In this document: positions 7,579 to 52,100 of the stretch, in pieces
Layout: every line of letters begins with the position of its first letter
Position numbering within the stretch: the first letter of the stretch is position 1
NCBI GenBank assembly: GCA_021234155.1
Contig: JAJEKV010000281.1
Span: forward strand, 372,001 to 436,000
Length of the DNA: 64,000 nucleotides
Reading direction: 5' to 3'
Source: Isoetes taiwanensis
Lineage: Eukaryota > Streptophyta > Lycopodiopsida > Isoetales > Isoetaceae
Position numbers and translations under genes: made by a program
The notes under the pieces: generated by a model
Seen by the model: the letters and a program-made list of their open reading frames with translations, nothing else
Told to the model about the DNA's origin: nothing
Databases searched by the model: none

Positions 7579-7615
<37 letters not shown>

Positions 7616-19927: not shown

Positions 19928-21529
19928 TCATCTTCCAGCAGAAAGGGGTTGGGAGATATTAGTTTGGCCACTAGTAGAAGCAGAACTGCCATGGCCACTA
20001 CCACTGGAAGCAAATGATATGGTAGAAGTTCTAGAGGAGAAATTATCCTTGAGCTTCCTTTGCTGGAAAAAATGCATAATAGGTGCCACGGTCCCCTGCA
20101 ACATTTGAAGAACAGCAGACATGGAAGGGCGTTCAAATGGCTCCCCTTGCATGCAAAGGAATGCTATCTGGATCACCCTTTTAGCTTGAGGTTTATCCAC
20201 AGAGTTCATAATTGCAGGATCTACAAGCTCAGACGGGAAATAATCTTGCCTCTCAAAACTTGAGACTGCATCTGAAAGGGTCCTCCCTGACATGTGAGTA
20301 ATCCGTTTTCCACCAACAATTTCTAACATAATAACTCCAAAGCTGTAGACATCAGACTTCTCAGTTATATTCCCTCCTATAATGCACTCTGGTGCAATGT
20401 AAGTAGGAGTTCCTCTGATTGTCAGAGTTGCTATCATACTCTCATCTCTGGATAACAGCCTAGACAGACCAAAATCAGCAACTTTAGCATTGAATTGGGC
20501 ATCCAGTAGTATGTTCTGAGGCTTCAGATCTAAGTGTAAAACTTTGCTCCTGCATTGTTCATGCAAATAAACCATACCACTTGCAACTCCAAGCATTATG
20601 TTAAATCTGCATTCCCAGCTCAAAGGGCAGTCTGTATTCTTAAAGATCCAAGTTTCTAAAGACCCTTTTGACATGTATTCATAGACCAGAATTCTGTGAG
20701 ACCCTTCATAGCAGTAACCTACAAGCTCAACAAGGTTCCAGTGTCTAATCATGGCAAGAATTGAAATTTCTTGAGTAAATTCTCCATTTTCTTCTTTAAG
20801 TACCTTCACAGCAACATCTGTGCCTGCTGCTGTCCATCCTCTGTACACAGTGGCAAATCCTCCTTCTCCAACAGTTTTGCTAAATGAATTTGTCATCTCT
20901 TTGATTTGAACGTATGTGTATCTTCTGAGACCGATCTCCAGAGGCATTTCTTTGGATTTCTTAGCAGTTGGCTTTTTATATTTGAAGAAATACAGTGCAA
21001 CCAAACCAACAAAGATCAAAAAGAGCAAAGCTCCAAAAATAGCACCTATAATGGCACCAACGGAAGAGGGTTTTTTCTTCCCACCCACCCAAAGATAAGC
21101 TACATAACTCTGATCCTTTACTGCTAACAGAGTGCCCAATTCATCAGTAGCAGAGTATGCCAAATAGCATGACTGATCTGTTCCGTTGAAAAAAGCGCCA
21201 TAGCAGCTGCTGTCTGTGGTGCATAAACCAAGGCATTCGGAATCGGAAGCAGTACTTACATTTGCCTTTTCTGTATTTATACTAGAAGAGAATGTAACTC
21301 CTGTTATTTTGATGAAAGCTGTGGTGTATCCACTTCCTTTTTGACATCCTCCAAAGCTGTTGGAAGAACTCTTGAGAACAAATGTATTAGGGCAAGAACA
21401 GCTGCCGGAGTCACAAATTCCATATGATCCACAGATGTTTGTGCCGCTGCAGAGGGAAGAATTAGAAGCTGCGTGTACTGATAAGATTAGAAGCAGCAGA
21501 GCTATGGATCTGAGGAGGAAATGCTCCAT
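19928..21529 (-). CDS. Receptor-like serine/threonine kinase, G-type lectin receptor kinase (SD2-5-like) without the lectin domain
   Basis: This is an intact single-exon gene of 533 residues, probably a plasma-membrane receptor kinase. The order is: signal peptide (1-20, hydrophobic ALLLLILSVHA), Cys-rich EGF-like segment (27-62), PAN-like Cys segment (about 70-125), membrane helix (about 158-182), then a kinase domain (about 216-490). Kinase motifs are VGEGGFATVYRG (220-231), AVKVLKEE with Lys242, HLDLKPQN (332-339), ADFGLSRLL (from 351) and YIAPE (377-381). The Arg of HRD is replaced by Leu, so this is a non-RD kinase, as in SD2-5-type proteins. The B-lectin domain expected in the roughly 800-residue family is absent. 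The tail (490-533) is Ser/Gly-rich. The start has the signal peptide directly after Met. Confidence 0.93.
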   Translation of the reverse strand: MEHFLLRSIALLLLILSVHAASNSSLCSGTNICGSYGICDSGSCSCPNTFVLKSSSNSFGGCQKGSGYTTAFIKITGVTFSSSINTEKANVSTASDSECLGLCTTDSSCYGAFFNGTDQSCYLAYSATDELGTLLAVKDQSYVAYLWVGGKKKPSSVGAIIGAIFGALLFLIFVGLVALYFFKYKKPTAKKSKEMPLEIGLRRYTYVQIKEMTNSFSKTVGEGGFATVYRGWTAAGTDVAVKVLKEENGEFTQEISILAMIRHWNLVELVGYCYEGSHRILVYEYMSKGSLETWIFKNTDCPLSWECRFNIMLGVASGMVYLHEQCRSKVLHLDLKPQNILLDAQFNAKVADFGLSRLLSRDESMIATLTIRGTPTYIAPECIIGGNITEKSDVYSFGVIMLEIVGGKRITHMSGRTLSDAVSSFERQDYFPSELVDPAIMNSVDKPQAKRVIQIAFLCMQGEPFERPSMSAVLQMLQGTVAPIMHFFQQRKLKDNFSSRTSTISFASSGSGHGSSASTSGQTNISQPLSAGR

Positions 21530-22307
21530 TCCTCTGCGCCTTGGTTCATGTCAGGTCATCTGGTTCCTGGTCAAGTGTTCTTCACCCCTCTTTCTTTTAT
21601 TTGAAGGGGATTTTTTTTTGGCGCTTAACGGCATGCTGTTGCATAATAAGTTAGGTCGTGGTGATATTCCATATGGCCTGCAGTGCCCAGCGCATTGCCA
21701 TAGCGGTAAAATGTTATAGCCAGCCCCCGGGGTAAAATGTTATAGCCAGCCTTAGATGGCAAAAAAAATATGCTGTCCACAAAAATGCCGTGTAATTTTT
21801 TTTGGCGTGACACGGATATACCACGGATATGCCCGTGGCTATAACATGATGCATCCAATATATACGGCGCTCCAGCGCATTGTCCCCGCGGACACGACCC
21901 GAGCCTCCCACGAACCTTCTTCACGTTTTGACATTTTTGCTTGCGCGTTTAGCACGTCTATCCATTTTCAACGCTCCAACATGGATGATGTTTTTAAAAC
22001 TTAGTAAAAACAAAAAACCATTGCTTCGTCTTTCTTGCCTCCTTCATAAACAAGTTGTTGCATTCTTCCTCCCAAGTGGGCCTATTACAACACTTGAATA
22101 CTTAACAAAGGACTCACGATAAAAAGTCGTAGCCTAGTATTACTAGTAAACTACAAATATGCAAAAGAGGATTTGCAAATTTTCAAGAAGTCCCCATAAT
22201 TGAAGGACCAAGAGGATCTATCTTTGAGCAATTTTCACCTAATTTAAGCATCAAGGAAGCAAGCCCTAATGGAAGTCATAAAGAAAATGCCGTTAAACAT
22301 TATCCTC
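21530..22307. other. 5' flank of the receptor kinase, with a 20-bp direct repeat
   Basis: GTAAAATGTTATAGCCAGCC occurs twice (21707-21726 and 21732-21751) about 180-220 bp upstream of the kinase start. TATA-like A/T stretches flank it. No gene is supported up to 22307. Confidence 0.5.
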
Positions 22308-23295: not shown

Positions 23296-23763
23296 CTTGA
23301 TGTTATCCTTTTGATGCTTGCATATTTTTTATATAATAAGGATCTCGCTAGATGGAGAAGGGTAAAATGCGGTAAGTATGGTTTGTTATAGGTTTGCAGT
23401 AGGAGAAACTTTTGCATATCAAAGAGGCAATATCATGTAGAAAAGAGATCCAACGTTATATAGAAAAGAGATCCAACAACTTCTAGATTAGGATAAGGAT
23501 CATTGAAAATGACATCCAAAAGGATGTGAAGATGTGGAAGTTGATTATGACATCAATTATATTAGTTGATGGCACAAGAGCAATATGCCCATGTTTGGAG
23601 GACTTCCAATTGGATATAAGAATTGTATGCTTGTTAGTCTACTTTTGCAAGTATCCTTTTCACAATGGAACTAAGGCTATCTTGCCTATGTAGATTTTCA
23701 ATTTCGCCTCAATCGTGATGTACAACTGAAATATAATAAACTAAGGAGTTACAAGAAATTTAT
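23296..23763. other. No supported gene
   Basis: A/T-rich. AGAAAAGAGATCCAAC is doubled at about 23439-23476. Nothing else was seen. Confidence 0.5.
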
Positions 23764-23785
23764 CGCGGCGGCCAAGGCCGCCGCG
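23764..23785. repeat. GC-rich perfect palindrome
   Basis: CGCGGCGGCC, AA, GGCCGCCGCG: 10-bp arms and a 2-base centre, at the outer edge of the left arm of the large inverted duplication, in otherwise A/T-rich DNA. Confidence 0.9.
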
Positions 23786-25776
23786 AACATTTCTCTTTTC
23801 TAAATGCACTGCAAGGGAGGCTGCCGCGAACATTTCTCTTTTCTAAATGCATTGCGAGGGAATTTGTGTCACTTTGGAGTGAAAAACATCTCCAACTGGA
23901 TCTATAGTGTATCTGAAAATGGGATTCAAGTGGAATTCACCTTGAAAGTTTTCTATGTATTTTAGAAGACCTTAAAAGGACATGGTTGCATAATAATTGA
24001 CATTATCTAAGAAAAAATGCCATTTCAATGGAAGAGTTCTCATTGAAAGCTTTCTTTAGTCACAAACTCCATTATAATACATATATTGAGTAGTATGTCC
24101 TGTAACATGATATCATACTAATATCTAGATTTCAAAGTCCAAAATGCTAGCATGTTTTCCTAACATGACATCATACTAAATATCTAGATTTCAAAGTGCA
24201 AGATTGCAAATGCATGTCATGTGTAATTTCTAGAAATAATAAACGATTGATTCTTGTAATAAGCTGGGCTAAGTAGGTGCCAAACTGGCTTGTAAAAAAT
24301 GTTATTGATGAGAAAAATTATAAAAAGTGATTATTTGCTCAAAAGTCCTAATAATATTATTAGGAATGAAAATCAAATTGATGCCGGGACATCATTTACT
24401 CCATCGCCAACCTTACATGACCTTCAGTTAAAATACTTTCAGGTTTAATAACTCCCTACCTAGTTTATTTTCTGAAGGTTGTGTAAATTACCATATCAAG
24501 TGTGACTCCACTTTTATGCAGAGAAGGAATATATTTAGATTTCCCTTGAGGCTGAAGAGCCCCATGAGAATCTTCAATTGTGTTGATGCCAATGGGGCTC
24601 TTCAATCGTGTTGATGCCAACGGTCCTAGCTATATTTGCTACTGCCTCTTCCCTGTCCCCTGACAGTAATTTAGTTCTTATTTCCATTGCACATTTGATT
24701 AGAAAGGATATGAAAAATCTTGTTTATAAATAGTTGACACTTGTAAGAAAAGTGGATACCTCACGCAATGCCCTTTGCATCTTTCCTTAAAAGTGTCAAT
24801 AACACCATTTGTTCCAATGATCCCCTTTCCCTTCATTCCCATATAAACAACCAAAACCTGCATCTTTGCCCAAAAGCAATATGTTGCATGATCCTTCTTT
24901 TGATTGTGGATGCTTTGAATGCTACCGGAGTTACTTGAGGCTCTGTTCCATGGACAAAGAGATATTCATTAACATCATATATGCGCATCATATATGCTAG
25001 CGTGGCAGAAACAACAGGAGTGAGTCCTTTTAGATTATCCATAGAAGCTTCAATGACAAAATCTGAAAACAAAAGTTGTGGATGGTAAAAAGCAATTCGC
25101 TCTCACGTCATCTTGCCTGCACACATTTGTATGATTATGTTGAAAAAAAAAAGAGATCCGCAATCATTGCAAGTGCTGCATGCCTACAAACATCAAGAGT
25201 CCAGGATGGGAGTGGCTTATCTGCAAAGCAAATCCATGCGGATGCTTATGTCTATGGCCTTTCAGATGTATCATATATATACACACACCATTTCTAATGT
25301 TGCATGATGAATCTATTTCTAATGTTGCATGATGAATCTGGAACTTTTTCTTTTTATGAGGAATGGACTCTTACATTGTATAAAGTTAATTGAAACTCAA
25401 AACCTTGTACCAATCTTCTCGCATCATCCTGGCCTGGAGCTTATAATGCAGTTTACCTAATTCTTTGCTCTGGCCTTGGAAACTTTTGAAAGTTCTGTCA
25501 CTACGTGCATATGGAAAAAGTAAGGCATCTCCCGTGAGTAACCCTGAGCGTTAATGGGTAACCCTGAGCCCTTCACAGGTGAGAGAACTGAATAAGAATT
25601 GACAATAATGCTCAACTAAAACAAAAGTTTAGCATTCTATGCACATGGAAAGACTAAAAAATACAAAGCTAGAGTTATTTATATTTCCATTTCCTATGAT
25701 TGAAGCCATGGGAACGAAGTTCCAAGAAAACAACATCAGTCTAAATGGGTGTTCTCTAAGAAAATGATAGGGCAAT
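23765..25776. repeat. Left arm of a large inverted duplication (partner at about 46735-49110)
   Basis: Many blocks match the right arm in reverse complement. Examples are GAACATTTCTCTTTTC (23786 / 48925), CATGGTTGCATAATAATTG (about 23980 / 48750), the ATPase remnants (24380-24860 / 47640-48065), CATTAACATCATATATGC-like (24968 / 47500), and the block around AGCATTCTATGCACATGGAA (25631 / 46900). Identity is clearly below 100% with many small gaps, so the duplication is old. The inner edge is where the 18-kb insertion begins. Confidence 0.85.
24380..24860 (-). pseudogene. Remnant of a chloroplast-type copper P1B-ATPase (PAA2/HMA8-like), left copy
   Basis: Minus-strand fragments in order: VYMGMKGKGIIG (about 24830), then LLSGDREEAVANIARTVGI (about 24611-24670), then IPSLHKSG (about 24505), then VGDGVNDVPAS (about 24380-24412). 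These correspond to the P-domain and hinge (GDGxND) of copper-transporting ATPases. The GDRE form is closest to the thylakoid member. Frameshifts, stops and missing segments show a relic. The intact protein moves Cu+ into the thylakoid lumen. Further upstream, minus-strand frame 24833-25072 may be another degraded exon. Confidence 0.6.
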
Positions 25777-29090: not shown

Positions 29091-30499
29091 AAAAAGGAAG
29101 GACCAAAAGCAAAATACAACTTCAACCAAAAGGTGAATATTTATTATGTTAGTTGAAGCTTTTAAAGTGTAATATCTGAACAATTTTATGATGACTTCTG
29201 CAGGACTAGAAGCCAAACATCATCTGAAAGTGCTCGATCTGGAGATGACAGCACAGGAGAGTAAGTAAGATTCTGTTGTAGTTGCAATTCATTTTGTCTC
29301 TCAATAATGCAAGTTTGGTTTACTGAGACCCGAGAGCTTGTTGAAAATAGTTCCATGCTACCCTTTCCAAAAAAGCCTCTAATCAAGGTGACTAAATATT
29401 GTGTGGAAGGTCTTTTGCAGAGACAGCACATGTCCAACATGTGCATATAGACATATTTGGAAGGTAACTTGATCAGATTCTTTTTTGCATTATGGTTAAC
29501 TACTTGAACTCTAACCTCACTTGCTTTGTGAATAGGTATCCGATTAGCATTATGCCCCGACAAATGGCGTGATGCATTTTTTTTTTCTTCCCTCAGGAAT
29601 TTCTTAGTTTCACTGAGCAGGCCTTTAACAAACTGTCATCTGATGCAACTTCGATGGTACAGTCTGGATTGGCTGTAGTTCAAAAAGGGCTTCAGGGAAT
29701 CATATTGAGCAAATGCCAGTACATTATGATTCCAATCCAGATTGAGGATCCTATGCACCATGCACTGGTCATCATTATTTTAGATAAGGCCAAGAACTGT
29801 AAAGACACCCTTTGTCTTCTCGCCTATCCTTATTCTCAACTCGCTAAAGAATGTGCAGGTTGACACGAGGATGGTTATGATGTAAGTGCACTCACTATTA
29901 ATTCGATTGTAATCTTTGCATAATTCTGATGTTATTTTCTATTGCAGGCTTCATAAAGATATCATTACAGCATTGACTAATTCCAGTTCTCGTAAGATTG
30001 ATATTTATGTGAAGAATTCAGTGCAGAAAGAAATTAGACCTGAGGTTCCACAACAAGGTGACCTGGCCTCCTGTGGTCTTTATGTCATGGGTTATATGCA
30101 AGCCTTTGTGGATGCCCAGTGCGTGCTAAGAGCATGGTGAGATAACATATCAACAATTGCTTTTATATAATATTTGATTCTGAAAACTATTTGTTTTCAT
30201 TCTTTGATTCTCTTGATTGGTTTGATCGGAGAATGCATACGTCCAAGAGACATGTGCTCATTAAGGCTATGATTAATTATAAGAGCCATCTCATTAAAAC
30301 AGGCACTACTAGCACCTAAGAGAAGCATGGTAGTGCTTAACTTCTTTCATAACTCTTTATCAAATGAGGCCAATTGGCTTTTTTTCTTATTGAAACAACA
30401 CTAAGCCATTTGGCTTTATGTAATCTTGATAATGTAATCAATGAATGGTTGCAATCCTAGTGCTACCGTGATGTTAATTATATTTTGCTTCCTTTACAG

Positions 30500-31957: not shown

Positions 31958-34900
31958 CTATTCCGCATCATGTAGCATTTCGGGGCAAACTTCCCAAGAG
32001 TAGCATCTCATGCACATCGTAGACAATGCATAAGCTGCAGAAGCACCCTTCACCTTATGATTTACTTTTGGCATTGCAAACTTTGCTCCAATAACAGACT
32101 CTGCAGGTACAAGAACTTCTTTGTCATCCAATAACTTATACTTGTGGTGACAACCAGGCAATTTTTGATAGTAATAGGCGGATATGACTGTTTCACCTGT
32201 ATGGTGATAATTTTTGTAATCGTCAATAACATTTTCCTGGAAAACAAATTTTGTTTTCTTGCAAAGTAGGATATAGTATGGCACATTTTCTTCATTTCCT
32301 GGTGCAGCAAAAGAAGCAAACATATCACCTACCTGTACTAGATCTTCTAGCTCTTCATTTACATTTGCAAAAGCAGCAGTTTCCTCATTCTCTACTTCAC
32401 AATGAGTACTTACTCGGGGTACTAGCTTCTTTAATTGCCACTTCCCACAGAATGAAATGGACTCACAAGCATCCCATTCAAAGTTAATGCAACCATTGCG
32501 TATAAAGATAATGGTCTCACCATTACTAAGGTGGGGTCAGTTTGGACTTATAGAAGCTATAGCATGCAATTTCGAATACCGTGAAGAGGTTGCACATCTA
32601 ATGCATTGGTTCTATCAATATCGACTCCTTCACTTCCCAAGATACTCGTTAACATTAGATTGCTTGCTCCTCAAGACAACACAAGCATCATGTGCACCTC
32701 TAATCTGCATTCCATGTTCTCAGAATCGCTACACCGCAAGTACCCTTGGCCTTGGCGGACTCTCCATCATGTTCACCTTTTCCATGCCCGGAACCAAAGT
32801 AGTTCCATTGTAAACTAATGCCATATTCAACATGGTACCCGGTAATGAAATATAAATTTCTTCGGACTTGTATTGCGGCAAAGACAACCATCGAATTCAC
32901 ACAATATGATATGTACATGAGATCCACCATTCTCTTTCAGCCATTTCGGATGAAGCTTAAATGTATGTTGTACAAAATGTGTATCATGATTCTGTCATCG
33001 AAATATACAAGTGAACAGTCTTCTTCAAGATGCCATTTACCTTTAGCATGGTAATCTGTACCATTATAGTAACTTGGTCGCAGATTCCAATGTTCGACCG
33101 AACCTCTTTGAAAGGCTTCAATGTATAATTTTCTGCAAAGTCAACCACCGATATCTTGAATCATCTCTCAGGTTTTGAACACATCTTCGAATTCTTTTGC
33201 TTTGCCGCTGAGCCGCAAAGTTGTGATGGATAAATGTCTTCATGTGACCAAACATGGCATCCAAAGATACAGGTGCATTTGTTGTCTTGTCCACCAATCG
33301 AGCCTTCTTGAGACTCCTTTTTTTTTTAGACTTCTCATCCACATAAGAGTATATTTGCCAATTGACTTCACTTTCAATGTCATTTTCGGTTTCTTTTGGA
33401 CACAAGATAATGTTACGCTTACCAGTTCTTGCAATCACTTGTAATACAATTTAATTTGTGCCACTCGTCACTATCTGTTTTGGACAAACCATACTCCTCC
33501 ATAGAGTCTTGACATTACAAAGATGTATGCTTGTGAGCTCGACAAATTCCATCATTTTTGTTAGCAAAGACAAACTTCACAATTGCAAACTACAATTGAT
33601 GTGGAGCTTAGCCCTCATAGAATTAAATGCCTTCCTGAAGTTCTCTGCTTGCTCATGCTTGACACAACAACATGTGTTTCTTTCCTTTAGCTTCCTTACA
33701 CAATCAGGTTTGAGGTATTCGAACAATCTGATGCCAATGTCTGCCTCTGGGTGTTGCTCCACAAAGTTCTGGTACAGTTCAGCCTGTGCATTCAAATCAT
33801 CATAGTTAATAAAAGATTTTGTATGTGCAATTGAGTACATGCGAAGTCAAAATGTACTAACATGTACTCATAATGTACTCATATGTACTCATATGTACTC
33901 ATATGCACTCAGAATGTACTTACAATATACATAAGGACAACAGAATACACATTACACATGTACATTAAATACATGTGTAAGGATAAAGTAGTAGTGTGGG
34001 TACATTACTGTACCCTAGAGCATATTACTGTTCTAGAGTAAATTCTTGAAGTCCATAGGCACTATCTGAAAGTCTAAGTACAAGATATGTACTCTATAGA
34101 CATGTATAACATACAATATTATGCAAATATCTAATCTGTACATTGGTTAAGAATTTTGGAGTCACTGCATAAATAAGAAAGGAAGATTTAGTATAATATA
34201 CATGGTCAATAAATGTAAGCAAACCAACAAAGGTGATTGCATATGTAAAAGTAAGTAAAAGTGAATACATAAATGATAGATCAGTCATTAGAAAGCATTC
34301 ATACATCAAAACAAAGAAGATACTATAAATTCCAATAAAAGTGAACATATACATGAGGGATCAGAAGCATTTCATACAATAAAGAATGAAATACCTGTGG
34401 TATATCAAGAAACTGGATTGCTTGATGCCTTTTCTTTCTTACATCCCTGTATTTAGGTGAAACCTTGGTGTTGTTTAACCAAAATTGGATGACTAATTGC
34501 TTTGTGTCTTCGTCCAAACAATCGGATCTTCTCTTTTACACCGCTAATGCCCATATAGTTGGACCTGCAATTTTCATTCTCTTTCTTCTGCCTGCAGCGT
34601 ATGACAAATTTCGAGGATGGCAGTTCAACATTTTTGAAGCAACTCCTTTCTGCTTCAATTCCCCATTTTTCCCAACAATCATGGATAAAACAGTGCTTGG
34701 TCGCCAACTTGTCTTTGCTATTAGAAGATTTAACCTCTTCTAATCCATCTTTGAGATTTTGTAACAATGAATGTTTCACCACTGCTTCTGAAGGTAGCCC
34801 AATCACAGGTTTAAACAACCCCAAGAGCCTGTTATCTTGCAAGATCCTGGAAACCAATACCTCTCTTTCACCAGGAGATAGAGAACTGGCTTCATTTCTG

Positions 34901-35133
34901 AAGCATTCAACAACCTTTTCTGCTCTTTTCCTGATTTTTTTGGTGAAGTACCTGGAATATGATCTGCCATTCTCATTGTTGATGGATTATCACTCTGTCA
35001 CTTCATTCAGCATGTCATTTAGAGTATCTTGTTCAACCATTTTCTGCTTCCCTTTGTCGATTTCGGTATCACCGTCCTCATTTTGGACATCAGCCTGAGT
35101 AATTCTGTTCATACTTTGATTTTCTTGTGCCAT
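31958..35133 (-). pseudogene. DDE-type transposase (DFAENY / GHGKGEHDG family), multi-exon, damaged
   Basis: Reading leftwards from MAQENQSMNRITQ (35133): exons at about 34920-34453 (FWLNNTKVSPKYRDVRKKRH), 33840-33577 (LKPDCVRKLKERNTCCCVKH), 33438-33143 (VDKTTNAPVSLDAMFGHMKT), then VVDFAENYTLKPFKEV (DFAENY region 33122-33142), then an FDGC...QYKS stretch (about 32870-32895), then WNYFGSGHGKGEHDG (about 32763-32810), and a C-terminal exon 32323-31958 (APGNEENVPYYILLC). The Asp of DFAENY, the Asp of (S/F)DGC..QYK and the HGKGEHDG motif mark a DDE/RNase H-fold transposase-like family seen in large eukaryotic DNA transposons. Several motif joins need frame changes, so it is probably inactive. The superfamily is not decided. 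Confidence 0.65.
33838..34100. repeat. TGTACTCATA repeats in a transposase intron
   Basis: ATGTACTCAT is repeated four times in tandem near 33867-33905 (one copy altered to ATGCACTCA), surrounded by further GTACT/TACATT words up to 34100. It lies between two exons of the minus-strand transposase and mirrors the TACATT-rich intron at 27.6-28.07 kb. Confidence 0.75.
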
Positions 35134-35390: not shown

Positions 35391-35697
35391 CAAAGATTCC
35401 CTTTAAAAAAACACCATGTTTCTAAAATAAGCCCTTTTTGATAGTTGTTGAGAATTTCTAGAGGTTTGCATTTTTTTTCATGCCATTTTGGCCCATCATT
35501 AGGCGAAAACTTTGTACTTATGAAACAGAAATCATAAAAATAGCGAAATTTAGGCATAGACTTGAAGAGACTGAAAGCATTACAAAAAAAACCACCAGAA
35601 TAGAAAGGAAAAAAAAGTAATATGTTTTTAATAAATTTTTGTACATCAATATTGAAGATTCATTGTAATAAATAATGATAATTTTAATATGCAGTAG

Positions 35698-38600
35698 TCA
35701 AAGATCTACATCATAGTCCTCCTCATTCTTTTGTCGCTCTCCCCGCCTCGCCCTTACATTCAATCGCTCCTTTGTTGGAGACTTAAGTTTTGTATCCTCC
35801 TTGTTCTTCGGAATGGTAGCTAAAGCTACTTCTTTAAGCTCGCAAAAGGTTGCCTCATTGCCTAGTGAGCTCGAGAATGGAGGTCAGATCTCCGAGGACG
35901 TTAGTTTAGCATAATCAGATGAAGACTTGGCCCCTAACTCTTGATTTTCATCTGGTAAAGTAGGTAAGGCAGCCAGTCTCATCTTCACAAAATGCATGAC
36001 CTCCTTATCAATATCCACGGCTACATAGTTGGGCCCTTCTTAAGTGCACATGCGATAGTAGTACCTAGAACGGAGAAAGCATCAAGCATTCCAATCTCCG
36101 GACGGTGAACATGTCCGTGAGATGGTTGATGAGCTTTTGTGGTTTCGGTAGTGATTCACAATCCTCGCCTTTGTGCACTTGGGTCCCGCAATTTCGTGAA
36201 GAAGGCTGGAAACTCTAGGACGCTTTGAAAAGTTTTGACAAAGCTAGGTGTTAAAGTGTTCCATGGACCTCTTCCCATCAAAACTCCAATAAGCTACATG
36301 AAGGGCCTCTACCTTGCCGAAAGCAACCTTGGTCCTCCACCATGGTAGTTGATGTTCGCTTTTTGTACCTAGTGAAGCATTTAAAGTGATGTTAGCAAAA
36401 ACAAGAAAACACGAAAAAACCACAAAGTGAAACACTATTCGGAATACACTACGTAATTAAAGAGAAAAGTAATTGTATTCGGAATAAGACTTGCCGCACA
36501 AGGTTTTCATATCCCCGAACTGGAGAACCAAAGTGATTTTTGAAAGCCGATTCCACCAAGCCGATCGCATGCGTTCGAATGGAACGTAACTAAACGCCAA
36601 TGTTTGGCCGTTGAGATCCGCTTTGATTCCTTCAATGAAAGCATTAAACTCGAAAAATTTGAAGGGCTGGTCGTCAGACTGGCATTGTCTTTAAGTTTAA
36701 ACCCGTAGGGAAGATCAGCAATAACCAAAGTAAAAGTCCTGCGGGCTTAACCGCGCCGACAAGGTTCGTGGTAATCACCATGAATGATTGAATATAAATT
36801 GTTTTGATCAAACATGAATCTCTCGTGAGTCGGATGGTTCGGCTCAGCAGTTCTTCTTTTCACCAACCTCTCTTCCCGTCTTTGTTCTAACCAAATTCAT
36901 AAAGCCCTCGGGCGGTGTCCTTATTTTTCTTTTTGCTCTAAAGAAAACAAAACAACAACCGCCAAGAGATCGTTTGTGCAGAAAAGGAATTTTGAGAGCA
37001 CTTACCCAGCCCTCAAAATTTGGTGCATATTGCACAATGCGCTTCGTCGGATGTGGCAATTGGGTAGAGTTCCTTGCACCTTTCCCATGTTTCGACGTTT
37101 AGCTGCTCCATCAAACATGTTTGACATGTTATGACTTTCTTTGGCTGCAAGACGCTAAGGAAACAATGAGATTAAACGTAAGAATCAAGGCAAAGTGAAA
37201 GGAAAACAAATAAAAGTCAAGCTATTTGTATTCGGAATACAAACCGGGTTAACCGGGTGATGCTACCTCGAAACAATATGCGTAAAATAGTTCCGCTTAC
37301 AGGACAAACATCGCTTGTCTCTAGAAAAGCAATGTGTATTCCGAATACGATTGCTTTCTAAAGGAGGAATGTGTATTCGGAATACACATGCCTTTCTTTA
37401 GAGGAGCAATGTGTATTCGAATACACAATGCTTTTCTAGAGACAAGCAATGTGTATTCCGAATACACATTGCCGTGGTGGAAGGAAGGCATGTGTATTCG
37501 AATACACTATGTACTGATGTTTTTGGGAATCTAACATGCAAAGAGTAAAGTTTGTGTCGAGAACTTACTTGTGCAATTCCTTTGACATTTCTTCTAGGCT
37601 AAACTCCTTATCAACAACTTTTTGGAGAAGCTGCCCGTAAGCTCCGTGTCGAGAAGCCCCCGTGATTCCGCACGGAATAATGGTCATTTCTTTTTGGGCA
37701 CGCCCCAGGTTTTTTCTTTGGCTGTCTCCTTGCCCTTGCTCTTTAACTCCCTCGCTCAACATTGTAAATATCTCGCCGGGAGTTCCCAAATCTGTTCAAG
37801 AAGATTTCACGCCAAATAGTCGGTTTGCTATTTCGAATACATTTTGTGCTTACCTTTGCCATCTCTAAAAGTTAATGGAATTAGCTTGTCGCGGGCCAAT
37901 GAGAGACCGCCTTTTATTGGCCTCGTCATATTTTCAAAGATTCAATGGCACACGCCCTTAAGCTCCAAGGAAAACCGGGTTTTAAGGTCCTCACCGCACT
38001 TTTCCTTGAAAATTACATACCCCCCGTGGCATAAACCGGATCTTGTCGACAAAGCTCATCTTTAGTTTGTACTCATTGTCAAGATTGTGGGTGTTGGCAA
38101 CGATTTTTGCTTCTTCATCCAGAAGAAGACCACAGTAGACAACAGCAGAGGCGGAGAGAGGTACCTCGGTTCTTCTTTTCTTTTAAAGTTGCCTTCTTGC
38201 CTTGAAGCTATGATTCCCTCCCAAGACGTAGTGAGTGTAGGTGTCGGTCGTTTTTTCGCCATACTCCCGGGGGGTTGTGCCTCGCCCCCACATCAACAAG
38301 GACAACTATTGGGGCCACATGAGCATTTGATTGCTCCTTATTCTCTGTCCTTCGTGTTCCTCAAGTGATCGGCATAAATTTTGCGAACCTGAAGTGGCCT
38401 TTCACCACTTCATTTTTCGGAGGAAGCTTCATTGAAGTGATTTGGCAAATAAATGACACCTTGCACAAACTTGTGCAGGGTTAATCTCTTCCATTTTTCA
38501 GATGTTTTATCAACTTTTTTTTCCTTAATAGCAACACCAGGTGCTTTACCCTTCCCTTCTTCTTCTTAGGTTCCTCGGGACTCTCGGATTTCAAGTCTTT

Positions 38601-39241
38601 GTGCTTTCCGCTTCTTTGGTTCTTTAGCAGCCTATGGTTGCCCTTGGCCTGCTAAGTTTCATTGGCCGCATGGGGTTTCTTCCTCGTCTTGTTCCCCGGA
38701 ACCTCCATCCGATGACCTCCCTCAAGAACTACCATCCGAGGGTGATGATTGTGACCTTTCTCCATCCTCAATGCTCGGACTCACCGACGGAAAGTCCTCG
38801 CCAGGGACCGGGTACAAACCCGTCTAATTCATGAACACAGGCTTCTTTTTATCCCGTAGTGTGAAAAGAATTTATACAAAGGCTTTGGTTGCACAATCGA
38901 CAATTCTAAAAAATGCGATGTCCACAACTATGAAGCCTTGGGAGGTCTTGAAGGATAGCCTCCCCACTGACCACCTTGTCCGGCAACTTCCTCAACATCT
39001 TTTATTGTCCCAAGGTTCACAAACTCGAGTCGGGCGTATTTTGTTACCAAGACTTTTACGCATCGGCAAAAAACGCAAGCAGGTCAGATTTTCCATCTGC
39101 ACCCCCTGGTTCCGAACCACCGCGTTTGAAAGTTTTCAGTAAATAGCGTGTTCGCGGGTGTCACGGTGTTTTTTGTGGGTGTGGACGCTTAGGCTTATGA
39201 GATTTCTTTGATGCCCTCTTGCTTCCTTCTTCCCCCGCCAT
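35698..39241 (-). pseudogene. DNA amino-methyltransferase-like gene (beta class, N6-adenine/N4-cytosine type) of the transposon
   Basis: It starts at 39241 with the basic MAGEEGSKRASKKSHKPKRP and ends at TGA (35698-35700) after ERLNVRARRGERQKNEEDYD. Exon-like pieces include FVQGVIYLPNHF (about 38440-38480), IPCGITGASRHGAYGQLLQK (about 37600-37680) and EQLNVETWERCKELYPIATS (about 37050-37110). Catalytic motif IV is VIADLPYGFKLK (36691-36725). After it come PKPQKLINHLTDMFT (36104-36148, motif X) and LDAFS-x-LGTTIACALKK (36037-36090, SAM-binding motif I), then NYVAVDIDKEVMHF. The order IV-X-I is the beta-class permutation. DLPYG replaces the usual DPPY. Frameshifts and stops in the motif I region suggest decay or unresolved introns. 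A weak GASRHGA resemblance to ParB-like folds is noted. Confidence 0.6.
36434..37507. repeat. Palindrome array 1 (GTGTATTCSGAATACAC-type) in methyltransferase introns
   Basis: Copies at about 36435-36450, 36473-36488, 37226-37242 (TTGTATTCGGAATACAA), 37334-37350, 37371-37387, 37411-37426, 37451-37467 and 37492-37507. Each is a self-complementary 16- to 17-mer. Spacing in the dense part (37334-37507) is about 40 bp. They lie in the introns of the minus-strand gene. Confidence 0.85.
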
Positions 39242-39492
39242 CACTAAACGTTTAAAACAACAATGTTAAGACGTAAATTCGAACGAAAAACGTATTCCGT
39301 AATAACATTTACTAATCTTGTGCCCTAAAGGCCGAAAAAGACAGAAAAACAAGCGTAAATATAGTAACTCTAAGACAATTTTTGTGCCTTAATTGACTCA
39401 AATTGTTATTTTAACCTTTAAAGTGGTCCGCTTTTAGCTAAAAGGTGTCTTCATTAAGTGCTAAAAAACAAGAGTTTTCAAAAGACAAGCAA

Positions 39493-39800
39493 AAGTGTAT
39501 TCGGAATACACTTTGTTCTTCGGGTGAAAGAAAGTGTATTAGGAATACACTTTGCTTAAGTGAAGTGCAAAGTGTATTAGGAATACACTTTATTCTTCCG
39601 GTGAAGAGCAAAAGTGTATTCGGACACACTTTGCACTGTAATAGCAAAGTAGTGCAAAGTGTATTCCGGAATACACTTTACTCCTTCGGGAAGGGCAAAG
39701 TGTATTCCGAATACACTTTGCACTTCGCCAAGGAGGAAAGTGTATTCCGAATACACTTTGCTCTTAGACAGATGGGCAAAGTATATTCTGGAATGCACTT
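39493..39800. repeat. Palindrome array 2 between divergent genes
   Basis: Eight copies of AAAGTGTATTC(C/G)GAATACACTTT variants start near 39493, 39532, 39570, 39612, 39655, 39698, 39736 and 39777, a regular 38-43 bp step. The spacers are also similar to each other (CTTCGG, GAAGGGCAAA words). The array stands between the start of the methyltransferase-like gene (39241, minus) and the plus-strand gene at 40203. Confidence 0.9.
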
Positions 39801-40017
39801 TGCCCTACAAAACCAAATCAGGAAACAAAAGAAAGACGTACTATGTACTTTATATGCTTACCTGTCCATTGTCTTCGCTATGTAAATCAGAATACAGCAA
39901 ATGTATATTGATCGGAAGGCTGGGTCGGGCGACTAAATCTCTCGAAAGGTATCACGCGCCCCAGGCGCTCGATTTTCCTTTTAAAGGTAGGCCATTGTCA
40001 GTTGTGTTTTTCTATGT

Positions 40018-40140: not shown

Positions 40141-40202
40141 TCATTAGTCCAATCGACTTGTGAGTTAGTAACAAGCCCACAATTTTTTGCAGTTGTTTGA
40201 CA

Positions 40203-43200
40203 TGGTTAACCGCTTCGTGAACAAACTTCCACCACCATTTGTTTGCCCAAGTACCTCTACTTCAGATGGAACACAAGACGGAGATGCTTCTTCAACACCT
40301 ACCTCGACAAGGTCTTTGTTGCTTCTCGAAGACACTCCGAGTCCAGTAACTAGCAGACTGCCACCACCTTTCCAACCCTCTCCAAGTCCAGTAGGAAACC
40401 GGCTGCCACCACCTTTCCAACCCTCACCTGTTGCACGTAGCAATCTTCCACCACCATTTGTACCATCCCCCGACACTACAATGGCTCGACCTCAGAGAAT
40501 TTTTCGAACCGACTCCGGGCCCTTTTTGTTGTTTCTCCATCTTCACTTACACGTGAATACAAGACGCTCAAGACTAATAGATCCTCCATCGCTTCCCACC
40601 ACGATTTCACTACAAATGAAGACGACCCGGCAAAGATCTACACCTCTTCACACAAACGCGGGACACATGGGTTTGCAGAATTTCACCGCTTTTAAGAGAC
40701 ATGTTTGAACGAACTCCACAGTGGAAGACGCTTACAACAACTTCGCTGGCACATCATATGGTGGCCCATCTCCTTCATTCAACACCGCACCTCCGCCTTT
40801 TATCCCACCACAGCTTCACGTGGTTTGTTCTCCTCTACAAGCACACCACTAAGGGTAGAGGAGGTCACCCCCGTGAGTAGAACTCTCTCAGAAGATGAAG
40901 ACACCAACGAAGTGCAACGAGATTACACATTCTCTAGCCAATCCACCAAGAAATTCAAGGTGGATTTTAGTTTGAGAGCATGCTCCTCCTAAGAAGAAGA
41001 AACCTTATGGACGAGCACAAAATGAGAAGACTTTTAAGAAGTAATGCTGCCATTGGGTTGCATCAACAAATTTAACATGGCTAAATTACGAGCAATTAGA
41101 GACAACCACAGCTCAATGACATTGGCTGACCAGAATGCCTATTTGGCCTATCATAAGACTAGACCGCAACACCTTCTTGCACTACATTAACCATTAAGAA
41201 GTTTGCCGAATGCTTTATGGTTATCCACCGCTTAGGGTCCACCGTAATGTCTAGAATACACAAAAGATCGGACAAAATCCAAAGAATTGATGATCATTGT
41301 GGACCAAGAAGAGTTATAACCATGCATGCCCTTGCTACCGGTGGTGGATGGAGAAATATTTTAGAGAAACATGTGAGAAGCTGCCAACAAGAACATGTAT
41401 CATTTAACCGATAACATCACCAAAAGATGTTTTAATGAGTACAAAGAGACTTGCACTCGCCTTCAAAGACATCTCTTTACTCACACTTCACCGTGACCGT
41501 GGAAAGTGAATTTGGTTTAGTGAAAATTCCCGTGAGACATAGAATGTCTGCTTTGTTCAAGGTGCGTAATTAAAGAGTCAAAGAGAATCGCAAAGATGAG
41601 GGTCGAAAGAAGTAAGCTCATGTTCTCCAATCTCTCACTTGTTTTAAAGATAATGCTTTGACCTCATTTCTTTCTACGTGATATTGTGCAAATGTAACCT
41701 TGCCGTGATTATCGTGGAACAACAAGCAGCAGAGAAGAAAGCTTGCCAAACAAAAAAAAAGCTCTTGAACGTCCATAATCGCAAATATATGTCCATTGTG
41801 ATTGATGGAATGGACCAAAAACTACTCTACCAAGATTTCTTGAACATTCCTAAAGATAAAGAGGAATGTTTTGTTAAGGTCCACCTTGTAGGAGCTTTCA
41901 TGGTCTTCAAAGGAAGTCTAAAGTGCAAAGTATTCTTGACGATCCAAACTTGCATGGTGACCCGAACCTCATAATTACAATTCTTAACAAGGTCCAAGGC
42001 GAAAGCAAGAGCAATTACCACCGCTTTTACCCGCAACTTGACAATACATTACTAAGGGAGAACAAGAACCAAACACTCTTTAAGGTGATCGGCCATGTTA
42101 GTGGAGCTAGGATCTTTAGAAAGGTGAAGCCGGGGTTTACTTGTAGGCCACACTCATGATCAAATTGACCAAATGTTCAGAGATTTTCTGTAGCCTAAGG
42201 AAGAAGGCTCTCTCTTCCTACTTTAGTTCAATTATTGAAGATTCTTACACTCCCACTCCAGTGGATCGATCTTCTTAAAGAGACTCCGCTGATTTCGGAG
42301 AGTTTATTTTCTCTCAACGCTCGCACAGAGAACAAGCCGTGAACAAATTGAATGATCTCACCTTTCAACATCACATCAAGTTCTACTTGAAGGATGACCG
42401 TAGTTTCTTCTGGGGCAAGAAGTATACCACAACTAAGGACTAGAGTCCACCGAGGGATTACGCTTCCTTAACTTCCTTCAGAGCGTCGAAAGCAACTTCC
42501 TCTCAAAAAATCCTCCTAAGGAGTCCAAGGTACCCCAGAGTCATCCTTAAAAAGCAATAGAAAATGGAATTTCCTCAGTTTTTAAGTACTTTTTAGAAGA
42601 AGATCGAATGTGGTGGAGTAACTTCTTCTAACAGAAAAATTGTTGTGAAAAATATAGCTCTTAAGATTTGTAAGAACCATTTCAATGGCCTGGGAATACC
42701 TTCCATCAACCCCAAAGACTAAGGTGTCCAAGCAATGCTAATGCTAGCACCCCGGCAGAGGAAGAAGACGCAGGATCGAGTCATCAAAATTCGACCAAGA
42801 CGCAGAATGAGCCTCAAGGTAATATCACAGAAATTACCAAGGGTATGCTAATTGCTCTTCCTAATCGAGGAGAGGATGACAAAGGCCTTCTTTCCGGATA
42901 GCAGTGCAAGCTTGACACACTAAGGAGGAAGGCTTAGTCACTAAACTCAAGATTCATTGGCTTGCAACACGCCGTAAAAATGCTTTTGAAGGTAGATATG
43001 AGTTAGAAAATGAGAAGCCATGAAAAGGAGAAAGTCCAAGAAGGTGGGTTGTAGGGATGAGTCGATCCTTAATGACGGGACTATATTATGCTATGATTTT
43101 AAATTGAAATGACAATCGCTTCACGCTTTGAGGGACTATCAATTTGTTTAAAAAAGCTTGTAATTACGTAAGAAGAGGATGAAGGTGGTGGCAATGCTTC

Positions 43201-43320
43201 CACCATCTGCTGATAGTGATGAGGAAGATAACTCAAGCACTTCCTCTAGTGATAGTGAAAAGAAGTGAAGGTGATGAGGATGGCATAAAATGAACATGAT
43301 GACGCCCCCGATCCCTCTCT
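40203..43320 (+). pseudogene. DUF7869-like (DDE-type) transposase relic with a Pro-rich N-terminus
   Basis: The frame from MVNRFVNKLPPPFVCPSTST (40203) carries three to four PPPF(Q/V)PSP repeats, then a Lys-rich part (PPKKKKPYGRAQNEKTFKK, about 40985-41040). The core follows in three frames: YMSIVIDGMDQKLLYQDF (IDGMDQ at 41801-41818), FVKVHLVGAFMVFKGSLKCK, FYPQLDN and RENKNQ (42034-42072), and VGHTHDQIDQMF (42143-42178). The order DGMDQ, QLDN-RENKN, GHTHxxID is the signature of DUF7869 proteins found in large transposons. The tail includes FQHHIKFYLKDDRSFFWGKK (about 42363-42422) and an acidic Ser-rich end (about 43180-43265). Frameshifts between the motifs show it is inactive. Confidence 0.7.
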
Positions 43321-43824
43321 CATCACTCCTCACACTTTTTGTACATAACCGAAGTCTAGAAAAATCAGAATTTTTGTGATGTTGAATATGAAGATTCTAT
43401 CTTCAAATTTTTTGAGAATACTACAAGCCAGCTACTGACTTTACTTCAATTTTTTGTTAAATATTTTATCCTCGAATTAGAGACTCCTGTAAAATATACC
43501 TTCAAGAACATTCTATTTGCTAAGAAAAGTGACACTTTAAAAATGTCAATTTTTGTTGCAAAAAAATTAGTCATTTTGGGGGTCAAAATAGAATTTCATG
43601 CTTTTTTTTACCCCCTTTTTACCCAAAAAAGGGAATCTTTGGAGGAATATTCCTTCGCTTACATGATTTGCCCGCTTAACAATGCCAATCTTGTTAAACA
43701 ATCAAATATATTCCTTTTTTTTAAATATATAACAACAAGCAACGTGGCCTCCCACCATACATTCAAATTACATAAAAACGGTTTTCTAGTGCAAAATAGT
43801 ACATGAATTTAGAACTAATGTATG
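43321..43824. other. Right end of the 18-kb insertion, non-coding
   Basis: A/T-rich, with T and A runs. AAAGGGAATCTTTGG at about 43628-43642 is the approximate reverse complement of CAAAGATTCCCTTT at 35391-35404 and might mark an inner element boundary, but this is weak. Confidence 0.4.
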
Positions 43825-46734: not shown

Positions 46735-49110
46735 TATTCATGGACAATTGCCGCTTTTCCTCGACATCCACAATTGCCCTATCATTTTCTTGGAGAACAC
46801 CCATTTAATCGATGTTGTTTTCTTTGAACTTGTTCCATGGCTTCAATCATAGAAAATGGAAATATAAATAACTCTAGCTTTGTATTTTTAGTCTTCTTTC
46901 CATGTGCATAGAATGCTAAACTTCTTTGTTCTAGTTGGAGCATTATTGTCAATTCTTATTCAGCTCTTCACCCGGTGAAGGGCTCAGTGGTTATCCATTA
47001 ACGCCGGGGAGTTACTCTACATCGGAGATGCCTTTTACTTTTTTCATATGCACATAGTGACATAACTTTCAAAAGGTTCCAAGGTCGAGCAGCAATTAGG
47101 TGTAACCAGATATGAGTTCCGTGCCGTGATGTCAGCGAAGATCGGGTGCCACAGTTTTGTTATACAATGTAAGAGTCCATTCCTCATAGAAAGAAAAGTT
47201 CTCTAGATTCATCGCGCAACATTAGAAATGGTGTGTATATATCCGAGCACATCCGAAGGCAGACATAAGAATCAAGATGCTTTATGCATTTGTGGCATGC
47301 GACTTGCAAATGATTATGGATTCTTCTTTTTTTCAACATAATCGCCAAATGTTTGCGCATTAAAGATGACGTGAGAGAGTTAATTGCTTTTACTGTCCAC
47401 AACTTTTGTTTTCTAGATTTTGTCATTGAAGCTTCTAGGGATAATCAACGCACCCACTGCGAGCCGCCACGCTTAGTATATTATAAGGACATGAGTATAT
47501 ATGATGTTAATGAATATCTCTTTGTCCATGGAACGTATTCTCGGGTAACCTCCGCCGTAGTATCTAAAGCATCCATGGGCCAATAACCGCGCAGCGACTG
47601 CGCAAACAGCGTCGCCGGGCAAAAGACGCCAGTTTTTGGCTTTCGTTTATGGGGAACAGCGGGGATCATTGGAAACACCGCCTATCATTAACTTTAAGGA
47701 AGATGCAAAGGGCATTGGCGGAGGTATCCACTTCTTTACAAGTGTCAACCATTTATAAACAAGATTTTTCCCATCCCTTCTAACTGGCGTGCAATGGAAA
47801 TAAGAACTTTTAAAATAATCGGGTTCTGGGACAGGAAGAAGTGTAAAGAGCAAATATAGCTAGGACCGCCAAACAACACAATTGAAGACTCCTCAATGGC
47901 CTCCACCAAGGAAAATCTAAATATATTTCTTTCTCGCATAAAAAGTGGAGTCACACTACATAATTTGGCTACCAAACCTCCTGTTCTAGAACTAGGTAGG
48001 TTAAACCCTCGAAAGTATTTTAACCTATGGAAATTGGCTTATGGAGTAAAATGATGTCCCGACACCAATTTCGGATTTCGCTCCCACAATATGTTTGTGG
48101 ACCTCCTCGGCGAACAACGTCTTTAATTTTTCTCATCACTAACATTTTTACAGCTCTGGCCATAATCATGGCTTAACGCATAATAATCAACGCTTATTGA
48201 ATAAAAATCACACAAATGACATGCAGACAGAATCTCGCACTCTTTGTTCCAGATATTTAGCATGATGTCATATTATATTGGGTATGATATCGGCGTTGCT
48301 GCAATTATACTAAATATACGTAATGTGTAATGTTAATTTTCAGCTGAATCACCGTTAGACCATCAGTCCATAGACAAGAAAAGCTCATATTTCGGTTGTT
48401 TTTGGTCAATCGAAAAAAATGAAAACTAACAAAACTAGACCTGGCATATTCGCGTCTTTTTGCTATTACAAGTCTAAAGGTCCGTGAGTTTTCAGCACCA
48501 TATAACTTGAACTCGGCCTGAATCGGAAAGTCATGTCATGTCGCGGCTCCTAGGAATGCGCCTGGCAATGAGTAAAGAGGCATGTCGCTTCCATTCTACT
48601 TTGAGCATCTAGAAGCCGTTAGGAAGGGACAAAACGCGACCACGCAGTATAACTCGCTCTCGCCCCAAACTCTCAATGGAGTTTGGTGACTAAAGAAAGT
48701 TTTCTACTGGTAAACCTCTCCCATTGAAATGGCATTTTTCTGATAATAAAGGTCAATTATTATGCAACCATGTCCTTTTTAAGGTCTTTAAAATATAGAA
48801 ACTCCTATAGTGATTCCAATTTGGAATCCCATTTTGATACACTAGAACTGAGATGGTTTTCATCTAAGGTGAGAAATTCCCCAGAATGCATTTGAAAAGA
48901 GAAATGTTCATGTATGGCCTCCCTGCAAGCGAAAAGAGAAATGTTCACGGCTGCAAAAAAATACATAAGAAAACTTCGTGAATCACTCGAATCCCATTTT
49001 CGATACACTATGATCCAGCTTGGAGATGTTTTTCACCCAGGAGCACAAATTTCGCGAATGGCCGTGAAAAGAGAAATGTTCACGGGCGGCATCCCTTGGT
49101 AGCAGAGAGA
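46735..49110. repeat. Right arm of the large inverted duplication
   Basis: This is the inverse partner of 23765-25776. The inner edge carries the CAATTGCC empty-site sequence (46771-46778). At the outer end a module of about 180 bp (GAACATTTCTCTTTTC through AAAATGGGATTC on the minus strand) is duplicated at about 48820-48925 and 48990-49090. Identity to the left arm is moderate with many indels. Confidence 0.8.
47353..48070 (+). pseudogene. Remnant of the same copper P1B-ATPase, right copy
   Basis: The plus-strand remnants match the left-arm copy: SIYDVNEYLFVHGT (47490-47530, against YDVNEYLFVHGTEP on the left), GGGGATCATTGGAA (about 47659), a decayed GDRE region (about 47812-47870) and a GTTGGCGATGG-like hinge site (about 48034-48064). 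It is more damaged than the left copy. Confidence 0.5.
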
Positions 49111-52100
49111 AAGAGAAATGCTCGCGCGCCCTTTACTGACGATAACTTCGGTAACATCATTTTAGAAGAGATGTATGCCTTCACGCTCTTATAGAAAGCC
49201 GGCATCGCGTACTTCATAGTTTTCCGCTTGAAGCGATTAGAAGTTTCTTTTTCTTTGAAAGTCCTATGGAAAAATCAGATTTTAACTTCAATAAGGCAAA
49301 ATTGCTAGTCGGAATTGTCCATGAAATCATATAAATGCTATAGAGCGGGCCTTTACAAATCAATGCCTCTACAACCAGTCTTAAGAAATCGGCCAAATCA
49401 TTGGACTTACCATTGAAATGGATTTAAGTTTTGGTCCTCGATTTTCAAAACCATTGAAGGGTTCAACCAACCTGATGGACCTGAGGTAAAACAAAGTCGA
49501 CATTATAGAATAATATAAGATGGGGCTGGGCATATTGCAAAAAGGCTACCATTATCACAAAGTCAGGTTAGCTGTACCGTCAATACCGCAAAAGCTGGGT
49601 AAGTTTCAACCGAAAGCAAATTAAAGCATCTTTATCACCTACCGATCAAAATAACATCCGGAGTGCTAGGCCATTAGAAATCTACATCACATAGTCTATA
49701 TATAGAATTAAAATAGTCGCATGATGCGCATCCAAATCGGTGCAAAATCGCTAATCGGGTGCACACAAATTTTCATGAAGTGTTTCTGCTAATTTGGGCG
49801 GTCAGTTAGAGACGGTCGGTCAGACCCTTCTCCTTTTTCCTGCAACAAAACCCGCACTCCAAAGGAGAATTCGCCGATGATGGAGATATAAGGACGATTT
49901 CACAACATCGAGGTTTCATGCAATTCGTGGGTGAAGCCCCACCGTGAGGAAGAAACTAGTTGGAAAATAAATGCCTGGGACGTAGATTGGGACTTCGCTT
50001 TCTTGAACAAGGAAGTTTCCAAACAAAGATAAACGACCGCAAAAGCGAGCATCTCAAGAGAAGCTGGAATTAATTTTTTGGTTAAAAAATCTGCTGCAAG
50101 AATTGTCACAACAAAGAAAGTGGAAGAAGGCAACCGAATCCTTTGGTTTCATGCTTGAAAATTGCATTAGATCAATAGTTAAGCTTGAAGAACACAAAGT
50201 AAAATGGTCACATTTGCCACTGCAATGTCAAAGATACCAAAAACAATAGACAAGGAAACAGAGGCGATAGTGAAGCACATGTTAGGAAAATTGAATGAAG
50301 GCAAAGGCAAAGGTGGTATGTCTAAGGATAAACAAAGCATGTGGGGAAAACATTAATCTTAGAGAATGCAGGAAATTTGAAAAGTAATGCATTTATCAAA
50401 GAATCAGCAAATAGAAGAAAGTTAAAATGAAGACCTCTAAAGTGTCGTAGAAAGCGGATGTTGAAGAGGCCGAACAGCTTACTCTACGCACTGGCGATTT
50501 GGCTGGTAAAACAGAGAATGAGAATGAGAATGAGGAGTTCGCTTAATCCAACCGTAATTTGGAGGCAGAAATAAAGATTAGAAGAAAACTATCTTAGATG
50601 GGAAACTTGGACAGAACATGATAGAAAAAAGCAATGAACCAGAGACAACCATTAAATGAGTAGGTCAAAAGTAAAATCAATCTTGAGGAGGAGTTAAAAG
50701 TTCTTGAGAAAGAACAATCACTTTACTTCCAACATAAATAATCATGGAGTTGCTAAAACGGAGCCCGCCACAACATTTAGCATCTCTACCAATATATGGC
50801 TTAAGTTGTTAGCAAGATCCTTTTATACACGCGTGAACATGTGGTCCTACTGGAATTTACTCGTTTCTTTTATAGGTTAAGTTTAGTACCCAACGCCGTA
50901 CTATGAGTATCATAGTTTTGTTGTTCATTGTTGAGAAAATAATGTATTTATGGTGGCCCGAAAGGTGCTAGAGGGTGTATTTGAAGAGTTAAGTTTTGGC
51001 AATCTTATCGGCTTATTCAAGGTAAGCCTAAAACAAAGACACCAAAAGCATAAAGGTCGCCCAAGAATCAGAGGTGTCATCCTTCGTTCAAAGAAGGACG
51101 CTCAGATACCACCTAAAGTCCTTATAGGAGTACAAATTAAATGTGACCACTTCAAAATAGTAATGTAAACAATCATTGATGATAATCAGCAAGAATTCAA
51201 GAAGTTTACGTGTCACCAAAGACTGAATAATAACACGCTCTGTTCACCAAGTCCAAAATTCGAATGGGAGGTGGTATCTCGATTTTTGGCAACTTTTGGA
51301 AGCCAAGCATTCAATGAATGGCAATTTTATCAAGATGCCATTCATTTTGAAGGTTAAATTTTTTCTTAATCATTCATTAAATTTGCAATAAACAAGCTTG
51401 GAGAGAAAAGGCAAAGCATTAATTTCTATTATACATATTTCGTTACAGCTTAAAGGGTCTCTTGTATATATTCTACTAGGCCTAAAAAGTTTACAATTGT
51501 GCTAGCGTGCTGCTTTTGCGGATCCATCCACCGCAAGATCATCTCATATAGTTCAGATTTGCCACGCCCCGGCGATGATAACGCATAAGAACATCAACAT
51601 TTCAAAAGCTTCGATTCAAAAGATTCTCGCATCATCATCCTTATCAAGTTTTACCTTCGTAATCTAATGCCTGCTAATTTTATGGAAGATGTCGGAAGAA
51701 CTAGAATCGCTTTGTCAGCAACTCACGTCATCATAGACACCAAAAATAGAAATCACACACTCCTATAAGCATCCCATAAAAGTCTTCTATGTTCTTACGG
51801 TTTGTTAAAAAATTTGTAATCTTACTTCACAAATGACTATGTTTCTGTTCCACCCTTTTCCCAAATCTAGGTTTTACGCTTCCCTTCCCCAACATTGTTT
51901 ATTTCCGTAAGGTGTCAAAGATGGGGCTGCTACACTCGACTTATTCTCAGTTTTACCGCCGTATGCATGACTTTAAATCCACTCGTATTGTTGGAAGTCA
52001 CGTAGGGTTTCCAGTATCGCATCTAATCGAGACATAGGTGCCCAAAAATGCATCGCCGGGCCGGATACCGTGTTTTGACCTTTGTTGGGAAGCTCGGGAC

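Follow-up and report, generated by a model that had tools for sequence, protein, structure and literature searches.

A broken beta-class amino-methyltransferase-like gene beside a DUF7869 transposase-like gene in DNA of Isoetes taiwanensis

Two broken genes in head-to-head orientation

The DNA considered here is a stretch of 64,000 nucleotides from the lycophyte Isoetes taiwanensis (assembly GCA_021234155.1, contig JAJEKV010000281.1, positions 372,001 to 436,000 of the forward strand), which we call the window and number from its first letter. Near its center, a broken gene resembling the beta-class DNA amino-methyltransferases lies head-to-head with a broken gene for a transposase-like protein of the DUF7869 type, the two being separated by a common space that measures roughly 1 to 1.5 kb, depending on the uncertain start of the DUF7869 gene. 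The parts of the two genes are as follows.

35701..39241, minus strand: broken methyltransferase-like gene, read from its first ATG at 39241 through several frames, with predicted introns
37146..37568, minus strand: predicted intron, donor GTAAGT at 37568 and acceptor TTGCAG ending at 37145; splice sites by consensus only
36850..37005, minus strand: a further predicted intron, whose donor is GTAAGTG at 37005 and whose acceptor, near 36850, is uncertain; consensus only
36657..36728, minus strand: motif IV region, reading LVIADLPYGFKL... (16.5 bits with a DPPY-consensus profile)
35965..36145, minus strand: motif X (KPQKLINHL), motif I (LDAFSVLGTT), NYVAVDID and the stretch that follows (profile score of 27.5 bits, PF01555 and PDB matches)
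40202..43349, plus strand: broken DUF7869 transposase-like gene; its start is uncertain, with an ATG at 40202 and relatives similar from 40763 on

A sequence-only reading of this DNA had cited four peptide strings as the mark of a beta-class enzyme, and all four occur on the minus strand in the order it gave: ADLPYG at 36719-36702, KPQKLINHL at 36145-36119, LDAFSVLGTTIACALKK at 36086-36036, and NYVAVDID at 36030-36007. They are spread over three frames (ADLPYG and LDAFS in one, KPQKL and NYVAV in the remaining two), and this copy yields no single spliced open frame. Because stops and frame changes occur along the gene, we treat the locus as a broken relative of the beta-class methyltransferases and not as a working member. 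Reading it across frames, from its ATG (39241) down to about 35701, gives 924 residues, stops included. The Pfam profile PF01555 (N6_N4_Mtase), proposed in that reading as the check on its assignment, recognizes the 251-residue C-terminal read-through of this copy at 27 bits (cut-off of 26.7; E value of 5e-6) but scores the 924-residue read-through at 23 bits, under the cut-off, and its match is limited to motifs X and I (PF01555 positions 160-217). Among six PDB sequence matches up to an E value of 10, the best two are CcrM (0.015) and MboIIA (0.025), both adenine type going by their names; three entries for unrelated ribosomal proteins rank between these two and a third methylase (1.8).

The gene on the opposite strand is recognized by PF25273 with 66 bits (cut-off of 26; E value of 4.3e-18). 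Aligned to its relatives P0049 and P0001, it has 551 of 799 residues identical across 45 frameshifts and 5 stops. So many frameshifts against so few stops make assembly indels possible, and the indel-rich stretch at 40763-43349 may owe its state to assembly errors or to an odd form of decay. We regard DUF7869 as a repeated family because 62 related proteins were found, 16 of them in the liverwort Riccia sorocarpa; one comes from the fern Adiantum nelumboides. In a structural model of one relative, strands and helices follow an RNase H-like order; the first strand contains D345, which is nearly invariant, and a similarly conserved D426 comes just past the fourth, and by this model the protein is probably an RNase H-fold, DDE-type transposase. 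DUF7869 receives no mention in the literature searched, and in a scan of viral contigs none of 47 pattern matches to it was confirmed. The C-terminal end of the relatives (residues 729-779 of P0013, matching the end of P0001) is strand-rich in secondary structure and may form a chromatin-reader or SH3-like barrel, a name that is a guess.

Strength of the methyltransferase motifs

Since frame pieces picked by eye can flatter a match, the DNA was searched with a frameshift-tolerant aligner and an SPPY-consensus profile whose 22 members come from prokaryotes and phages (20 of 24 collected loci, with four left out, plus L001 and L002). The top local match of the window, both strands considered, is the X-I stretch at 36145-35968, with 27.5 bits compared with 19.2 for the runner-up and 26.6 for the highest of 60 whole-window shuffles; within 35700-39241, the X-I block was equaled by none of 200 shuffles. 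Under the condition that motif IV precede X-I by 200-1200 nucleotides, the chain from motif IV to X-I scores 43.5 bits, a value that no shuffle out of 200 attained (the highest being 35.9), and the motifs thus stand in the beta-class order IV, X, I. When the same chain was sought over 70 real tiles, the top two both contained the methyltransferase-like gene, and the best tile without it scored 34.6.

Other tests speak against a signal beyond chance. Taken singly, motif IV lacks significance with the SPPY-consensus profile (237 of 400 shuffles score as high), and a second profile, consisting of 14 proteins with a DPPY consensus and made only after the first had failed on motif IV, raises it to 16.5 bits, which is moderate only, as 4 of 300 shuffles score as high. 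When introns of unlimited length were allowed across the window, the best score of 28.2 was exceeded by 1 of 36 shuffles, and the signal disappears among long-range joins. With the methylase part of a phage ParB-methylase-type profile, motif IV and motif I are the sites of the two highest local matches, but 30 of 60 shuffles do as well as the better of the two. Motif I is strong and motif IV by itself weak. That the motifs arose by chance in noncoding DNA, as the weak single-motif and free-intron tests would favor, is an idea to which we nonetheless give almost no credence, given a two-motif chain that is unmatched among shuffles and best among real tiles, together with a PF01555 score just over its cut-off.

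Motif IV reads DLPY, with L in place of the P of the canonical DPPY. Because the DPPY-consensus profile supports this motif and the SPPY-consensus profile does not, adenine N6 is suggested as the target, and we take the enzyme most probably to be a DPPY (adenine-N6) one; N4-cytosine may have been the target base, and the DLPY of this copy weighs against a firm adenine call. The same substitution would suit a protein that kept the fold and lost DNA methylation, serving as a noncatalytic DNA-binding or RNA-modifying accessory protein. We think this quite unlikely, as motif I is well preserved and, in a broken copy, DLPY may be recent decay.

Searches for relatives of the read-through in 5.8 billion proteins returned 6505 candidates, none within an E value of 1, and, in a second search, 514 candidates, none within an E value of 10; a scan of viral contigs found none. 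Searches with tblastn gave 22 phage records (best E value, 0.3), of which 21 are Mycobacterium phage methyltransferases matched over the X-I part and one is an unannotated phage, and two plasmid records, a SIR2-family protein (0.09), which we take as chance, and a methyltransferase (0.7). NCBIfam and PHROGs gave weak matches only, part of them methyltransferases. Weak domain matches that we dropped are to staphylokinase-family (E values of 0.045 and 0.065), SatD (0.055), PMC2NT (0.079), NAM-associated (0.11), and Cons_hypoth95 (0.21), the last falling on the X-I part. No Dam-like or D12-class Pfam family is listed for the read-through up to an E value of 10, a range in which the HMMER filters discard most weak matches.

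One further stretch of the gene was considered for a second domain, as follows.

38030..38236, minus strand: possible ParB-like stretch, beginning THYVLGGNHSFKARRQL; resemblance by eye only

The phage proteins L037 and L038 have ParB_N followed by PF01555, their ParB_N matches (E values of 2e-5 and 9e-5) lying under the curated cut-off. Pfam ParB has no match in the window, and the ParB-like reading of 38030..38236 was set aside after a test with a profile of 48 phage proteins (reduced from 161 like L037 and L038, ParB not being checked in each), in which the stretch ranks fourth. The best match to that profile lies elsewhere, at 38497-38450, where 30 of 100 shuffles score as high over 35700-39241; over 37600-38700, the figure is 24 of 200.

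Palindromes, candidate ends, and related systems

The space between the two genes contains an array of palindromes whose core recurs in an intron of the methyltransferase-like gene, and an inverted match brackets both genes, as follows.

39492..39803, no strand assigned: palindromes of the AAAGTGTATTCCGAATACACTTT type, arrayed about 40 bp apart within the intergenic space
37225..37507, no strand assigned: second group of palindromes, with the core seen in the array and located in a predicted intron of the methyltransferase-like gene
35391..35404, plus strand: left copy of a candidate terminal inverted repeat (CAAAGATTCCCTTT), whose 14 bp recur exactly in inverted form at 43628-43641
43628..43641, minus strand: candidate terminal inverted repeat, right copy, an exact inverted match to 35391-35404

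All 12 matches in the window to the core GTATTC-C/G-GAATAC, with two or fewer mismatches allowed, fall within 36435-39754; 0.93 would be expected in the whole window. Perfect palindromes with arms of 8 or more number 17 in the window (mean of 3.2 and highest of 7 in 20 shuffles); nine of the 17 lie in 37225-39759, all outside the stretches read as protein, and the predicted intron at 37146..37568 holds five. They could be binding sites for the transposase or the methyltransferase. An inverted match like the 14-bp pair arose in 0 of 300 shuffles when narrow zones were considered and in 12 of 300 with wider zones, and no target-site duplication is seen in the sequence around these candidate ends.

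Because the methyltransferase-like gene adjoins the transposase-like gene in opposite orientation, we read it as an accessory gene. The locus is, in our judgment, probably a decayed DUF7869 plant DNA transposon with a head-to-head accessory gene for a beta-class amino-methyltransferase, and the arrangement fits with both genes having belonged to one element. The sequence-only reading had called the gene transposon encoded and methyltransferase-like; the order of motifs IV, X, and I, the predicted introns, and the transposase-like gene opposite bear this out, while a functional gene is not what this broken copy offers.

Comparable systems are described in excerpts of several papers, from which the following comparisons are drawn. 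In the alga Ectocarpus, a 21.5-kb Sola1 element carries a gene for a ParB-like plus N4-methylcytosine/N6-methyladenine (N4mC/N6mA) methyltransferase opposite its transposase (PMC12477816). The likeness lies in a methyltransferase gene set opposite a transposase gene; the differences are the land-plant DNA here, a DUF7869 transposase of a type perhaps separate from Sola1, and a ParB-like part that in our case lacks statistical support, the Sola1 proteins being compared by description only. ParB-methylases of phages and conjugative elements (PMC5512222; L037 and L038) share the N6_N4_Mtase domain, and the phage order of ParB_N before methylase is the order read in the window; they are, however, prokaryotic, and the window has no detectable ParB match. 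Retrotransposons of the DIRS type have Dam-like methyltransferases, those of Symbiodinium and Klebsormidium have C5-type enzymes, and some DNA transposons carried by viruses include a DNA methyltransferase (DNMT) gene (PMC3266345 and PMC5890265). All of these have a transposon-encoded DNA methyltransferase in common with the present locus, but they are mostly retrotransposons with Dam-like adenine or C5-cytosine enzymes, whereas here a beta-class PF01555 enzyme lies beside DUF7869. The TET/JBP-bearing DNA transposons of fungi (PMC12730594) likewise carry a gene for a DNA-modifying enzyme, in their case a dioxygenase. The bdelloid N4CMT and the Marchantia N4-methylcytosine (4mC) methyltransferase (PMC8885841 and PMC12344493) are bacterial-type amino-methyltransferases in eukaryotes, as ours would be, but they are host genes for N4-cytosine enzymes, whereas the context here is a transposon and a DPPY-type motif IV fits better.

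Methyltransferase accessory genes on transposons are therefore already known as a kind; what the literature searched did not show is the DUF7869 setting and the land-plant DNA. Among the papers listed in that literature, of which few subscription papers formed part, none describes a gene of this kind carried by a land-plant transposon, and word searches of PMC8226300 and PMC6431247 turned up nothing on the subject. The class of accessory enzymes that excerpts of PMC12477816 call possibly novel in algae would be extended by this locus to land-plant DNA and a DUF7869 transposase.

The methyltransferase-like gene could instead have been a plant gene in its own right, bacterial in origin, that is now dead and merely beside a dead transposon. 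Marchantia offers a model in its own bacterial-origin 4mC methyltransferase (excerpts of PMC8885841 and PMC12344493), and the pairing with DUF7869 is known from one locus. We hold this to be decidedly improbable: the genes lie head-to-head, the palindrome core occurs in their shared space and in the methyltransferase intron and nowhere else in the window, the same arrangement has an algal precedent in print (PMC12477816), and the SPPY-consensus profile finds no match at motif IV.

If the locus is a decayed transposon with an accessory methyltransferase, then in intact copies the transposase would cut and move the element while the methyltransferase would methylate DNA, probably that of the element itself. 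The methyl mark might alter how host factors or the element's own transposase treat it, with candidate roles in shielding the element from silencing, regulating the shared promoter, or letting the transposase recognize its own DNA; the sequence-only reading had also proposed that it might mark the ends of the element. A bolder form of the proposal, which we rate as unlikely, is that there is a land-plant DNA transposon family with its own ParB-like adenine methyltransferase, which recognizes or marks palindromes of the shared promoter and introns and so labels the element independently of host cytosine methylation. Should intact copies exist, they could be used to address by experiment whether a transposon can write DNA marks of its own, and to trace the origin of bacterial-type amino-methyltransferases in plants.

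The surrounding DNA

The two genes also lie within a long inverted repeat (23757-25776 and 46773-49148), whose arms of 2.0 and 2.4 kb contain blocks 72-78% identical and whose main block has 1213 of 1681 columns identical. It further encloses a broken Ulp1-type C48 protease gene at 29573-30140 on the plus strand (PF02902; E value of 1.9e-6) and a gene at 31958-35100 on the minus strand. C48 protease genes are often cargo of plant DNA transposons. The 31958-35100 gene has long open stretches, reading like WNYFGSGHGKGEHDG, and no Pfam match; it presumably resembles another transposase type.

These limits raise the alternative that the methyltransferase gene was part of an element of about 25 kb, together with the C48 protease and the 31958-35100 gene. 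The extent and identity of the repeat and the protease between its arms speak for such an element, as does the Ectocarpus example, which carries a comparable gene and measures 21.5 kb (excerpts of PMC12477816). We nevertheless find it unlikely. The ratio of observed to expected CpG is 0.40 in the left arm and 0.91 in the right, and change from CpG to TpG/CpA between the arms is one-sided (20 versus 2); because the arms differ so strongly in CpG, the repeat is possibly not one insertion. In addition, no target-site duplication is seen, the character of the interior shifts near 35.2 kb, and shorter candidate ends exist in the 14-bp pair.

On realignment, the arms show 391 mismatches and 44 gap runs, resembling ordinary divergence, and we rejected the idea that the right half of the window is sequencing noise. 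Near 35200, the CpG ratio steps from 0.21-0.66 leftward (in 2-kb bins) to 0.55-0.98 in the bins from 36001 rightward; an assembly join, age, or methylation history may be the cause. Tandem repeats to the right of about 35200 have more indels overall.

Farther to the left, the window contains a long interspersed nuclear element (LINE)-type retrotransposon at 5007-10105, with endonuclease, reverse transcriptase, and zf-RVT domains, and an open receptor-like kinase gene at 19928-21550 on the minus strand, which encodes 540 amino acids with PAN and kinase domains.
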